Origin: Microbacterium dauci
GTDB taxonomy: Bacteria > Actinomycetota > Actinomycetes > Actinomycetales > Microbacteriaceae
Direction: 5' to 3'
NCBI RefSeq assembly: GCF_030065535.1
Contig: NZ_JASJND010000005.1
Span: forward strand, 62,001-126,000
Length of the DNA: 64,000 bases
Every line of letters starts with the position of its first letter. The first letter of the stretch is position 1. The notes under the pieces were generated by a model. That model made no database searches, was not told where the DNA came from, and saw only the letters and a program-made list of their open reading frames with translations. The position numbers and the translations under genes are program-made. Shown here piece after piece: positions 3,394 to 63,800 of this stretch.

Positions 3394-3399
3394 CCCGCT

Positions 3400-3454
3400 C
3401 AGGTGGCAGTACTTGCCGCTTCGCGGGGCGCGTAGCGGCGTGTCCTGCCACCTG
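3400..3454. repeat. palindromic intergenic element, family A copy 1
   Basis: An inverted repeat with arms CAGGTGGCAG (3400-3409) and CTGCCACCTG (3445-3454) encloses about 35 bases. The right part, GCGGCGTGTCCTGCCACCTGAAGC, matches the two tandem copies near 53.3 kb with one mismatch over 24 bases, so this is a dispersed repeat and not a simple terminator. It lies between the convergent ends of a membrane-protein gene and araA. Confidence 0.75.
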
Positions 3455-3486
3455 AAGCAGGATCAAGGGCTTGACGCACAAGCGAC

Positions 3487-36222: not shown

Positions 36223-36230
36223 TATCGCAC

Positions 36231-36317
36231 AACCACGGGAGTCCGGTGAGCCGGGCTGAGAGGAAGCGACCCACGCTTCGACCGTCGAACCTGATCCGGA
36301 TCATGCCGGCGCAGGGA
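36231..36317 (+). ncRNA. TPP riboswitch (THI element)
   Basis: The conserved pieces are all present in order. They are ACGGGAGTCC at 36234, the T-loop-like GGGCTGAGAGGAAGC around 36254, a variable stem, and the pyrophosphate-binding half ACCTGATCCGGATCATGCC followed by GGCGCAGGGAG. It ends on the GGGAGGAGC ribosome site of ykoE, so TPP binding would most simply hide that site and block translation. It is followed by ykoEDC, which fits. Confidence 0.95.
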
Positions 36318-36326
36318 GGAGCAACG

Positions 36327-36959
36327 ATGCACGCGTCCACGCACGCACCCACGTCCACCACCGTTTCGCAGCGCTTCCGCTGGCGGGTCGTCGACATCGT
36401 CGTCGCCGCCGTGCTGGGCGTCGCCGTCGGACTCCTGTTCTGGTTCTGGAACGGAGTCGGGTACGGCTGGTTCTCGGTGATGGATGCCGCGACTCCCGGA
36501 CTCGGCGGCCTCGCCGTCGGCATCTGGCTGATCGGCGGCGTCATCGGTGGTCTCGTCATCCGCAAACCCGGCGCGGCCCTTCTTGTCGAGGTCGTCGCGG
36601 CGATCGTGTCAATGCTGCTCGGCAACGTATGGGGCGTGTCGACCCTGCTGTCGGGGCTCGTGCAGGGGCTGGGCGCAGAGCTCATCTTCGCCATCCTGCT
36701 CTACCGCCGATTCGGGCTGTGGGTCGCGGCTGCAGCCGGCGCCGCGGCCGGAGCGGCAGCATGGATTTTCGAGCTGTTCTACGGCGACTCCCCGAACATC
36801 CTGAAGACGTTCGAGTTCAATGCCATCTACCTCGGCTGCGTCGTCATCTCCGGTGCCGTGCTCGCGGGTGTCGTGGGGTGGGTGCTCGTGCGCGCCCTCG
36901 CGAAGACCGGCGCGCTGAGCCGCTTCGCGTCGGGTCGAGAACAGGCGGACGAGGTCTGA
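36327..36959 (+). CDS. ykoE: ECF transporter S component, YkoE family (thiamine precursor)
   Basis: The 210-residue integral membrane protein has six hydrophobic segments. It carries YkoE-family sequence, such as WNGVGYGWFSVMDAATPGLGGLAVGIWLIGG and LLGNVWGVSTLLSGLVQGLGAELIF. As the substrate-binding S component it captures hydroxymethylpyrimidine or thiamine, consistent with the TPP riboswitch directly upstream. ATG 36327 has GGGAGGAG 6-13 bases upstream, part of the riboswitch 3' end. The ATPase gene overlaps its stop codon, possibly using a CTG start. Confidence 0.93.
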   Translation: MHASTHAPTSTTVSQRFRWRVVDIVVAAVLGVAVGLLFWFWNGVGYGWFSVMDAATPGLGGLAVGIWLIGGVIGGLVIRKPGAALLVEVVAAIVSMLLGNVWGVSTLLSGLVQGLGAELIFAILLYRRFGLWVAAAAGAAAGAAAWIFELFYGDSPNILKTFEFNAIYLGCVVISGAVLAGVVGWVLVRALAKTGALSRFASGREQADEV

Positions 36960-52673: not shown

Positions 52674-53207
52674 TCAGCGCGTCTTCTTCGGCGCGTCGCT
52701 CACGTCGAGGAGTTCGTGCGTGCCGCCGAGCGACGACCAGGCCGAGGCTTTCCCGGATGCCGCATGCTCCGAGGCCCGTACGGCGCGCTCGTCGGCCCAC
52801 TCGTTCAACACGTGCCCGCGGTGTCCACGGACGTGCTCGAGCACGACGTCGGGCATGCCCGACGCGCGGCGGGCCTCGCGGGCGTCGATGAGCTGTTCGA
52901 GGATGTCGCGGTTCTTGGCGGGCGCGCCGGTGGAGGTCTTCCAGCCGCGGCGGCGGTGCCCGTCCATCCACTTCTCGTAGGTGTCGATGGCGTACTTCGA
53001 GTCGGCCTGCACGACGAGTTCGCGCACGTTCGGGTGGTCGACGATCGCCTTCAGCAGCCCGAGCAGCTCGCCGATGTTGTTCGTGCCCTCGGGGAGCGAC
53101 CCTGCGGCCCAGTGCCCGTCTTCGCCGACCCACGCCCAGCCTGTGGGTCCGGGGTTGCCCTTGCAGGCGCCGTCGGTGGCCACGACATAACGGGGGATCT
53201 CGGTCAC
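52674..53207 (-). CDS. rnhA: ribonuclease HI
   Basis: The 177-residue protein has the RNase H fold with the four acidic catalytic residues Asp12 (TDGACKGNPGP), Glu47 (NNIGELLG), Asp69 (QADSKYA) and Asp139 (NEWADERA), and the HRGH loop before the last. It cleaves RNA in RNA-DNA hybrids. The C-terminal 30 residues beyond the domain are a short extension. GTG 53207 lies 6 bases after TAGCGT (53219-53214, minus strand), so the transcript is probably leaderless. Confidence 0.94.
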   Translation of the reverse strand: MTEIPRYVVATDGACKGNPGPTGWAWVGEDGHWAAGSLPEGTNNIGELLGLLKAIVDHPNVRELVVQADSKYAIDTYEKWMDGHRRRGWKTSTGAPAKNRDILEQLIDAREARRASGMPDVVLEHVRGHRGHVLNEWADERAVRASEHAASGKASAWSSLGGTHELLDVSDAPKKTR

Positions 53208-53246
53208 CCGTCCACGCTACCCGCGCCGCGGCGCCGGGCTCGCACG

Positions 53247-53322
53247 TTCAGGTGGCAGCTCTCGTCGCTTTCGCCGCTGGCATGCGGCGTGTGCTGCCAC
53301 CTGAAGCGGCGTGCGGGCCGCG
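53247..53322. repeat. palindromic intergenic element, family A copy 2
   Basis: TTCAGGTGGCAG (53247-53258) and CTGCCACCTGAA (53294-53305) are perfect 12-base arms around a 35-base interior, followed by the flank GCGGCGTGCGGGCCGCG (53306-53322). The following copy, 94 bases on, differs at only 2 of these 76 positions. Confidence 0.85.
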
Positions 53323-53340
53323 GGGTCGTCCCCTCCCTCG

Positions 53341-53416
53341 TTCAAGTGGCAGCTCTCGTCGCTTTCGCCGCTGGGATGCGGCGTGTGCTGCCACCTGAAG
53401 CGGCGTGCGGGCCGCG
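53341..53416. repeat. palindromic intergenic element, family A copy 3
   Basis: TTCAAGTGGCAG (53341-53352) and CTGCCACCTGAA (53388-53399) with the same interior and 3' flank as the preceding copy. The only differences are G to A in the left arm and C to G in the interior. The two copies form a tandem pair with a 94-base period between rnhA and the GntR gene. Confidence 0.85.
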
Positions 53417-53489: not shown

Positions 53490-54134
53490 ATGGGTGAACC
53501 GACGCGCGCCGGCGATCGGGCGTACGCGACGCTCCTCGACGAGATCCAGCGCGGCACGCTCGCTCCGGGAGCCGTCCTCGGCGAGGTCGAGCAGGCGACG
53601 CGGCTCGGCGTGAGCCGCACGCCCCTGCGCGAGGCGCTCCGCCGCCTCTCGGCGGACGGGCTCGTCGAGCAGCAGTCCCCGCGCGTGACCGTCGTCGCGG
53701 GCATCGACGTCGACGACATCCGCGCGCTGTTCGACCTGCGCCGCGCGCTCGAAGAGACCGCCGCCCGCCTCGCGTCCCGCGCTGCCGACCGCGACGGCTT
53801 CGCAGCGCTCGCCGCCGAGTTCGCCACCATTGAACCTGTGGCATCCCATGCGGACGAGTACTACGCGCTCATCGCCCGATTCGACGCCGAGTTGGATGCC
53901 GCGGCGGCGAACGACTATCTCGCGTCGGCCCTCCGCACCGTCCGCACCCACCTCGTGCGGGTGCGCCAGTTCGCCCGCGACAAGCCCGAGCGACTCGCGG
54001 CATCCGCTCCGGAGCACCGCCTCATCGCGGAGGCCATCGCCGCCGGCGACGCCGATCTGGCGGTCCACGCCACCCACATCCACCTGCACAACGCGCTCAC
54101 GAGCATCCTCGCCTCCCTGGAAGGAACCCCATGA
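53490..54134 (+). CDS. GntR family (FCD domain) regulator of the methylcitrate operon
   Basis: The 214-residue protein has a winged HTH at about residues 8-72 ([44 protein letters not shown]) and a helical FCD ligand domain from about 80, with a metal-site-like pair of histidines in EHRLIAEAI and [11 protein letters not shown]. It overlaps prpD by four bases (ATGA) and heads the operon, so it probably controls propionate use in response to methylcitrate or a relative. ATG 53490 is 6 bases after TACACT, a leaderless start. Confidence 0.92.
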
Positions 54135-60800: not shown

Positions 60801-63800
60801 CCGGCTCGTACGAGGTGAAGGTCGCGCACGGCCTCAGCTGGGACGAGAACTACGGCGCCGACGGCGTGCGCGGCGGCGAGAACATCGCCTTCACGGCGAC
60901 CGCGGGCAAGGCCGTCGTCTTCAGCTACGACTCAGAGACGCACGTGCTCGAGATCGAGGCCGCCGACCCGCCGCTCGCCGGCACGGGTGAAGCGCGGGCG
61001 CATTGGATCGACGCAGAGACGCTCGCGTGGCCCAGCGACCTGGGCGGTGCAGACGCCGGCGCGAGCTGGTCGCTCTACGGCTCCGCAGACGCACAGCTCG
61101 CGGTCACCGACGGGACGGTGACCGGCGGTGAGGCGATCGAGCTGTCGCCCGCCGACGGCGGCCTCACCGACGAGCAGCGCGAGCGCTTCCCCGCGCTGAC
61201 GGAGTTCACCGCACTGCGACTCGAGGAGGTCGACCGGGATGCGGTGGCCGAGCTGCTGCGCGGACAGCTGCGCGTCGCCGAGCGCGACGCCGCCGGCGCA
61301 CTGACTGCGTTCACGGGCGTCCAGATCCCCGGCGTGCTCGACGACCTCTACGCCGAGGAGGTGGCGGACGACGCCCTCGGCGTCTCGTTCTCAGGCAAGG
61401 GCGCCAAGACGAAGACGACCTTCCGCCTGTGGGCGCCGACCGCGCAGTCAGCGACCCTGCTGACGTGGGACGCCGGTGCCTCCGGCGATCCCGTCCGTCA
61501 CGAGGCGTCGTTCGACGCGACATCCGGCACCTGGACCGCCGCGGGCGGGCGGGCGCTCATCGGCGACGAGTACCTCTGGGAGGTCGTCGTCTTCGCACCG
61601 AGCACCGATCAGATCGAGACGAACGTGGTGACCGATCCGGCATCCGTCGTACTGACCGAGAACTCGACGCGCTCCGTCGCGATCAGCCTCGCCGACAAGG
61701 CGTACATGCCGAAGCAGTGGCAGAAGGCCAAGCCGAAGGCGGTGGAACGGAACGTCGACCGCGCGATCTACGAGCTGCACATCCGCGACTTCTCCATCAG
61801 CGACGAGACCGTGCCCGAAGCCGAGCGGGGGACGTACGCCGCCTTCAGCCGGAAGAGTGCAGGAACGGCGCAGCTGCGACAGCTCGCCGAGGCGGGCATC
61901 AACACGGTGCACCTGCTGCCGTCGTTCGACATCGCGACGATCGAGGAGGATCGTGCGGCCCAGGCGACGCCCGACTGCGACCTCGCGGCGCTTCCGCCGG
62001 GCTCGAGCGAGCAGCAGGCCTGCATCGCCGAGGTCGCGGACACCGACGGGTTCAACTGGGGGTACGACCCGTTCCACTTCACGACCCCGGAAGGGTCGTA
62101 CGCGCTCCAGCCCGACGGCGGTGCGCGGGTGGCGGAGTTCCGTGGGATGGTGGGTGCCCTGCACGGGATGGGTCTGCAGGTGGTCCTCGACCAGGTCTTC
62201 AACCACACCGCGGCATCCGGTCAGGACGGGAAGTCCGTCCTCGATCAGGTCGTCCCCGGCTATTACCACCGGCTTAACCTGGCCGGCGCAGTCGAGACCT
62301 CGACCTGCTGTCAGAACATCGCGACCGAGCACGAGGTCGCCGAGAAGCTCATGGTCGACTCGGTCGTCACATGGGCGCGCGACTACAAGGTCGACGGATT
62401 CCGGTTCGACCTGATGGGCCACCATTCGAAGGCCAACATGCTCGCCGTGCGCGAGGCGCTCGATGAACTGACCGTGAAGCAGGACGGCGTCGACGGATCG
62501 GCCGTGTACCTGTACGGCGAAGGCTGGAACTTCGGCGAGGTCGCCGACAACGCGCTGTTCGAACAGGCGACGCAGGGGCAGCTCGGCGGCACGGGCATCG
62601 CGACCTTCAACGACCGACTCCGCGACGCCGTGCACGGCGGCAGCCCCGTCGACAGCGGCTCGACGTTCCGTCAGGGCTACGGCACCGGACTCGGGACCGA
62701 CCCCAACGGTGACCCGATCAACGGCTCGACCGACGAGGCGCTCGCCGACCTCGCCCGCCAGACCGACCTTGTGAAGCTCGGACTCATCGGCAACCTGCGC
62801 GATTACGAGCTGCCCACAGCCGACGGCTCGCTGAAGCCGGGCTCCGAACTCGACTACAACGGCCAGTCGGCCGGCTACGCCGACCAGCCTGACGAGGTGA
62901 TCAACTACGTCGACGCGCACGACAACGAGACGCTGTACGACCTGTCCGTCCTCAAGCTCCCGGTCGAGACCTCGATGGCCGACCGGGTGCGGATGAACAC
63001 GCTGTCGCTCGCCACCGTGACGCTGTCGCAGTCGCCGTCGTTCTGGCACGCGGGCACCGAGCTGCTGCGCTCGAAGTCGCTCGACCGCAACAGCTACAAC
63101 TCCGGCGACTGGTTCAACCGGATCGACTGGACGGGGCAGGAGTCGACCTTCGGCTCCGGCCTGCCGCCTGCGGCCGACAACGAGGAGAAGTGGCCGATCA
63201 TGGCGCCGCTCCTCGAGAACGCGGCGCTGAAGCCGACGGCCGACGACATCGCCGCGGCCGAGGCCTCCGCACTCGACCTGCTGCGGGTGCGCTCCGAGGT
63301 CGGGTTGCTGCGGCTCGGGTCCGCGGCGGCGATCTCCGAGAAGGTGTCGTTCCCGAAGAGCGGGCCGGACGCCGACCCGGGCGTCATCGTGATGCAGATC
63401 GACGACCTCGCAGGCGACACCGACGCCGACCGCGACCTCGACGGCGCGCTCGTCGTGTTCAACGCGTCTCCGGAGGCGACGACGCAGACGATCGACGATC
63501 TCGCCGGACGCGGGTTCGTGCTGACATCCGCACAGGCGAAGGGGTCCGACGCCGTCGTCAAGACGACGACGTGGGATGCCGCGACCGGCACCGTGACCGT
63601 GCCGGCCCGATCGGTCGCGGTCCTGGTCGATGCGGCGCCCGTTGCGACGGCGGTCGTCGCCGTGCCGACGCCGCCGGTCGCGAAGCATGGTGCGGCGGTG
63701 CGGATGACCGGCAAGGTGATCGCTGTCGACGGCAGCGCGCCGGTGGGTACGGTGACGGTGATGGAGGGATCGAAGACGCTCGCGAGCGCGGAGCTCCCGG

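Follow-up and report, generated by a model that had tools for sequence, protein, structure and literature searches.

Dispersed palindromes in Microbacterium dauci and a matching Vsr-like nuclease gene: a probable two-part selfish or mobile system

What is a tandem pair of nearly identical palindromes doing between two divergent genes of Microbacterium dauci? The pair lies in a stretch of 64,000 nucleotides, here called the window, which covers positions 62,001 to 126,000 of contig NZ_JASJND010000005.1 (C9 below). An earlier note on the window had described two units with a period of 94 bases and 2 differences in 76 bases, as well as a third related copy about 50 kb away. Both descriptions hold. 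By eye, 2 of 76 positions distinguish 53247-53322 from 53341-53416, the start-to-start spacing is 94, the 84-base units of the pair are 95% identical, and the third palindrome was located between convergent genes. The arms quoted in the note are both found exactly in the first copy, but the second copy, with TTCAAGTGGCAG as its left arm, and the third, which starts CTCAGG, deviate from them. The features are as follows.

53247 to 53305, + strand: 59-bp palindrome, copy 1 of the tandem pair (covariance model 78.2 bits; C9:115247-115305)
53341 to 53399, + strand: 59-bp palindrome, copy 2 of the tandem pair (covariance model 77.8 bits; C9:115341-115399)
53239 to 53416, + strand: tandem repeat of two 84-base units with period 94 (palindrome and 3' flank)
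3398 to 3456, + strand: 59-bp palindrome, solo copy between convergent genes
52674 to 53207, - strand: gene left of the pair and pointing away from it, which we take from its translation to be RNase HI-like
53490 to 54134, + strand: gene right of the pair and pointing away from it (in-frame ATG start picked by eye), from its translation presumably a GntR-type regulator

In an alignment of 11 copies (A1) the palindrome is 59 bp long throughout (11/11) and consists of an outer arm TTCAGGTGGCA / TGCCACCTGAA, some 5 bases with loose pairing, an inner arm reading GYCGC / GCGRC in most copies, and a variable centre. Hairpin folding of the three window copies beats that of dinucleotide shuffles, with z values of -5.0, -3.4 and -6.0. 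The 12-base arm with up to 2 mismatches matches the window 6 times against 2.45 expected, a number reached in 1 of 100 shuffles, and all 6 matches are arms of the three copies. The note knew of no name for the repeat, and in the window no Rfam family matches it. The sole Rfam match in the window is a TPP riboswitch at 36225-36334 (+ strand, 57 bits).

Hairpins of this kind might be transcription terminators or mRNA-stabilising structures that resemble each other by chance. We consider this very unlikely: the hairpins are stable (z from -3.4 to -6.0) and many are intergenic, but by eye no T run follows any of the three window copies, the pair sits between divergent genes, other copies lie in coding sequence, and the likeness described below is specific to the resident nuclease locus and absent around control genes.

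A covariance model (R1) was built from 11 copies and used to search the genome (2.88 Mb, 13 contigs) and its relatives for the unit, as the note had suggested. At E <= 4.1e-5 the genome has 17 R1 sites, which fall at 12 places; contigs C2, C8, C9 and C10 carry all of them, and C1 has none. Within the genus, at least 61 of 366 genomes match R1 at E <= 1e-6 among the up to 15 candidates scored per genome. The window pair is indeed a near-identical tandem duplication, but a local duplication without wider meaning, with three copies only and none in relatives, is refuted by these numbers and retains practically no chance. They bear out instead a dispersed family of REP or MITE size in Microbacterium with signs of mobility, as the note had proposed. 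The pairing of such palindromes with a nuclease, described below, extends beyond this genus.

The better-scoring orientation is + at 16 of the 17 sites. In the sister genome G169 (3.12 Mb), 15 of the copies among the matches listed fall within 0.10-0.92 Mb, and another is found at 2.85 Mb. Such a skew in contig and orientation could be an origin or replication-strand bias.

Arrays hold 6 copies in G150 (L143), 7 in G120 (L151) and 5 in G243 (L141), with spacings of 72 to about 120 bp. Near the palindrome places the DNA identity between our genome (G000) and G169 is about 75-98%, mostly 80-90%, and the places are largely common to both, with unequal copy numbers: 1 in G000 against 2 in G169 at C8:385072 and at window position 3398, 2 against 1 at window position 53247, and 1 against 4 at C9:204755. 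At C8:107698, copies within one genome are by eye closer to each other than in-register copies are between the genomes, which suggests turnover within arrays, and one G169 copy is a mere degenerate remnant in G000.

Palindromes were also found inside cytochrome b561 coding sequence, two in G000, two in G067 and four in G110, with no match in the G169 gene. This cytochrome b561-type gene adjoins ETF alpha (L010:1573-3099, L139:541-2286, L162:1544-3298, L295). Its long N-terminal linker repeats the motif RRGLPRxxGGExWPP, and in 3 of 4 genomes the palindromes lie in frame in that linker.

Which protein could maintain such a family? RAYT is the REP-associated tyrosine transposase of REP/BIME repeats (PMC2817692), and according to PMC3733652 it is the dedicated enzyme of GTAG-type REP repeats, the CGTC type being apparently without one. 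A RAYT-like transposase, as suggested in the earlier note, is absent from our genome, and the Y1/HUH transposase family PF01797 matches 0 of 13 element-bearing genomes, against 5 of 14 control genomes; RAYT was therefore rejected as the mover. By inspection, rather than by a systematic scan, no GTAG tag can be made out in the A1 arms. Of the 12 places, one (C9:321403-322719, some 196 kb past the window) does bracket a gene.

C9:321597-322562, outside the window on the same contig: nuclease gene, 320 aa, bracketed by the same palindrome

The contig stops 12 bases past the palindrome at C9:322661-322719, an assembly break at the very repeat that flanks this gene.

Residues 250-315 of the protein match DUF559 (E 4.6e-5, over the Pfam cut-off) and MTES_1575 (E 2.4e-6, under the cut-off, as is the MTES_1575 score of 9 of 10 proteins scanned). 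In the wider family, C-terminal profile matches at E <= 0.1 were obtained for 29 of 30 members with MTES_1575 and for 24 of 30 with DUF559. Judged by these profiles, the protein is a nuclease with a C-terminal Vsr-like PD-(D/E)XK domain (MTES_1575/DUF559). A profile search of solved structures gave weak matches only, to the endonuclease-like 3hrl (E 0.015), PvuRts1I (E 0.59) and the mobile-intron protein 3r3p (E 0.78), and NCBIfam gave nothing informative. AbiEi profiles weakly match the N-terminal half in a minority of nucleases (at most 5 of 30 members for any one profile, best E 3.8e-6). Four residues, E237, E281, H287 and D297 (numbered on the L196 match, N-terminal extension included), show 99-100% conservation in a set of 110 proteins, which leaves out L330, the loci omitted from the 109-locus count below, stop-containing proteins and proteins under 280 aa. 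Since these residues are conserved and dN/dS is 0.18 in one pair (G000 against G169, custom counting script), the nuclease seems to be kept. A Vsr-like recognition of T:G mismatches in the stem was given no weight, as mismatches are common and not conserved in the 11-copy alignment.

The relatives of this nuclease in G169, G067, G107 and G120 also adjoin palindromes, and the five proteins make up profile A3. At E <= 1e-40, A3 detects relatives in 292 of the 361 genus genomes; of 297 genomes sampled from the order, 142 have a relative at E <= 1e-20. Many genus genomes carry several copies of the family. No viral relatives were found by the patterns used. A second nuclease of G169 (L263, G169:C1:33314-34237) has a different palindrome (GGGGACGCGAATCGTCGCG...) on either side.

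Bracketing was measured as the best local alignment of the 600 bp left of a gene with the 600 bp right of it, with a threshold of 45. A repeat shared by both sides was found in 65 of 109 nuclease loci, leaving 44 below the threshold; this count omits L207, L240, L278, L291 and L265-L268 and includes L269. With slightly different rows, omitting L196, L209, L278 (a large direct repeat) and the ungrouped L265-L269, the count is 64 of 111. Loci from other genera are bracketed in 13 of 17 cases, and no bracket was seen at the G033 locus and the second G110 locus. The controls reached the threshold in 1 of 97 cases (0/45 window genes, 1/29 rnhA loci and 0/23 sdaA loci, the latter without the 7 of 30 that have a nuclease match), giving a Fisher p of about 1e-22. 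When the left flank of one nuclease locus was aligned with the right flank of another, 1 of 300 pairs reached the threshold (L196 and L209 omitted, flank too short).

The bracketing segments are mostly palindromic, 45-70 bp long where measured and locus-specific, and the two copies are direct in 49 and inverted in 16 of the 65 loci. Likeness of the palindromes follows identity of the nucleases: a score of 45 or more is reached by 0.3% of locus pairs below 40% nuclease identity, 11.6% at 50-60% and 65% at 60-70%, the top bins being inflated by pairs with common flanks. These loci also bear on the idea that the palindromes are the miniature derivatives of some ordinary insertion sequence that has a different transposase, the nuclease gene being a passenger. 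Palindromic ends, arrays and solo copies are MITE-like, but the bracketed gene is the nuclease in each bracketed locus examined, across many sequence families, and the RAYT/Y1 transposase is absent from 13 of 13 genomes; we regard the idea as improbable.

Do the scattered copies belong with the nuclease of the same genome? Forty-five scattered palindromes from 12 genomes, hand-chosen at about one per array, were scored against both flanks of 70 nuclease loci. The locus of the same genome ranked first of 70 for 31 palindromes and among the top three for 42; several second ranks have the sister genome first (G000/G169, G243/G244), and the three misses are two palindromes of G256 (ranks 7 and 54) and one of G110 (rank 30). 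The palindromes were located with R1, which biases the set to R1-like sequences. The set excludes five scattered loci from G346, G033 and G246, genomes without a nuclease locus among the 70. In G346 the palindrome of the nuclease (L329) differs from the scattered copies (L154).

Presence of the two parts is also associated. By hand count, palindromes occur in 32 of 83 genomes with a nuclease at E <= 1e-100 and in 29 of 278 others (Fisher p 2e-8, with relatedness left in), the palindrome survey covering 366 genomes with up to 15 candidates each and the nuclease survey 361. Thus 29 of the 61 palindrome-positive genomes, counted by hand, are without a nuclease at that level.

Evidence of relocation was found in f18, a genus belonging to another family. 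There the palindrome beside the G456 nuclease recurs at 17 sites in G456, at 11 in G650 and at 6 in G651 (strands merged by hand); two sites each in G456 and G650 bracket the nuclease, and the other, scattered copies number 15 and 9. Likeness between the G456 and G650 nuclease loci is confined to the stretch bounded by the outer edges of the two palindromes (L375 3060-4170, L383 3001-4112); their 3-kb flanks reach scores of 33-40, where a single shuffle gave 30. In 12 f18 palindromes pairing covers 97.7% of stem cells, and 17 cells are changed on both sides, with 0 of 500 shuffles as high; the number of pairs that show such two-sided changes, 5, is not unusual (129 of 500 shuffles).

Within Microbacterium, the closest nuclease clade sits by sdaA in G107 and G120, by mgsA in G067 and by an ABC transporter in G000 and G169. 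The match of G067 with G107 ceases, on one side, within some 2 bp of a palindrome's outer edge. Thirty sdaA loci were fetched: 7 have a nuclease match nearby, and in 8 the insertion is absent, no nuclease is seen, and sdaA directly adjoins the gene that lies beyond the nuclease in G107 and G120. In three of these 8 (L303, L305, L324) an unrelated palindromic sequence (GTCGTTGAGCGAGC...) fills, by eye, the stretch between sdaA and its neighbour. In G107 the insert reaches beyond the palindromes, by about 30 bp on the left and by 45-60 bp on the right, so that its exact ends are not fixed. No target-site duplication was established at the insertions compared. Among the matches listed, the flanks of nucleases more than about 85% identical are mostly homologous, which speaks against frequent movement.

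The same observations have to be weighed against a regulatory function, in which the N-terminal region of the nuclease would bind the palindromes as operator sites, controlling the nuclease and a small set of genes, and the copies would be kept for regulation and not for mobility. The weak AbiEi matches (up to 5/30, best E 3.8e-6) would suit this explanation, as would the pairing of the palindromes with the resident nuclease, the position of the window pair between divergent genes and the places largely common to G000 and G169. Operators would not account for repeats on either side of the nuclease gene, for copies between convergent genes and inside coding sequence, for shifts of copy number at places common to genomes, or for a bracketed unit that relocates with palindromes at its edges. 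We hold it to be unlikely.

Other origins were set aside. No plasmid match was found, and a phage origin has one marginal match (E 0.6). By eye, 15 viral stretches with the outer arms do not have the inner arms in common, and 43 stretches with the outer arms in genome contigs are mostly unrelated palindromes, except two Microbacterium aurantiacum records. Integron attC sites were discarded for lack of core sites. In Nocardia vinacea and N. anaemiae (L046, L052, L064, L076) a longer palindrome family (GATCAAGATCAGGTGGCACTG...) surrounds the core CAGGTGGCA; no nuclease match at E 1e-5 was found near it in the DNA fetched.

With REP/RAYT, as described in the literature cited above, the present family has in common palindromes that are dispersed and also clustered in tandem, a dedicated gene set between copies of its own palindrome, and co-divergence of gene and palindrome. 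It differs in its enzyme, a putative Vsr-like PD-(D/E)XK nuclease in place of a Y1/HUH transposase, in palindrome length (about 45-70 bp, against 20-40), in the copies counted per genome (6-17, against above 100) and in orientation, as the bracketing palindromes are mostly direct (49/65) and those of RAYT are stated to be inverted.

Free-standing homing endonucleases with a Vsr-like or EDxHD fold are selfish nuclease genes. The present nuclease gene would share this selfish nature and possibly a related fold (the weak 3r3p match, E 0.78), and the sequences are compatible with homing-type cut-and-copy by repair. In contrast to homing endonucleases, the putative site here is a dispersed palindrome retained to the left and right of the gene, and no intron or intein occurs in the loci seen. 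Rickettsia palindromic elements insert within genes, and the palindromes described here can likewise sit in frame inside genes, as in the cytochrome b561 linker, but a dedicated gene is recognised here; the Rickettsia elements are mentioned in PMC3733652. The MTES_1575 REase domain is named after a Microbacterium testaceum protein and is described in PMC3710099 as part of giant multidomain proteins with HEPN, helicase and wHTH domains. The proteins described here belong to the same Pfam family but are stand-alone, about 320 aa long and bracketed by palindromes.

We therefore prefer, with a probability of roughly 0.7, to read the palindromes and the Vsr-like nuclease gene as a two-part selfish or mobile system, in which a REP-like family would be maintained and spread by a dedicated nuclease. 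The bracketing, the matching of palindrome and nuclease, the relocation with palindrome ends, the insertion-free sites and the local changes of copy number are observed in the sequences; that the nuclease moves the palindromes is what we infer. The loci without a bracket (44/109), the palindrome genomes without a matching nuclease and the locus being mostly kept in close relatives speak against this reading. To a narrower proposal we give even odds: a stand-alone Vsr-like PD-(D/E)XK nuclease, as the sole protein, would recognise its own hairpin of about 45-70 bp, spread solo copies and arrays, and move itself as a hairpin-gene-hairpin cassette of about 1.1 kb, each lineage having its own hairpin. 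Such elements would be spread over several genera and families within this actinobacterial order.

The nuclease would bind and cut its own palindrome, as a cruciform or as a single-strand hairpin. Repair would then copy palindromes beside existing ones, giving arrays with 72-120 bp spacing, or elsewhere, and at times a whole palindrome-gene-palindrome cassette would be copied into another palindrome. If the two bracketing palindromes, which are mostly direct, recombined with each other, a solo palindrome would be left behind.

In the open-access full texts searched, no report of palindromic repeats paired with DUF559/MTES_1575 genes was found. None of the known kinds tested fits the system. 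If the reading is true, it adds a second, unrelated enzyme family with its own palindromes, and such systems would have arisen more than once; it would also suggest a role for uncharacterised DUF559/MTES_1575 proteins. The many natural nuclease-palindrome pairs of differing sequence make recognition testable by pair swaps, and the arrays, unequal between close relatives, may serve as strain markers.
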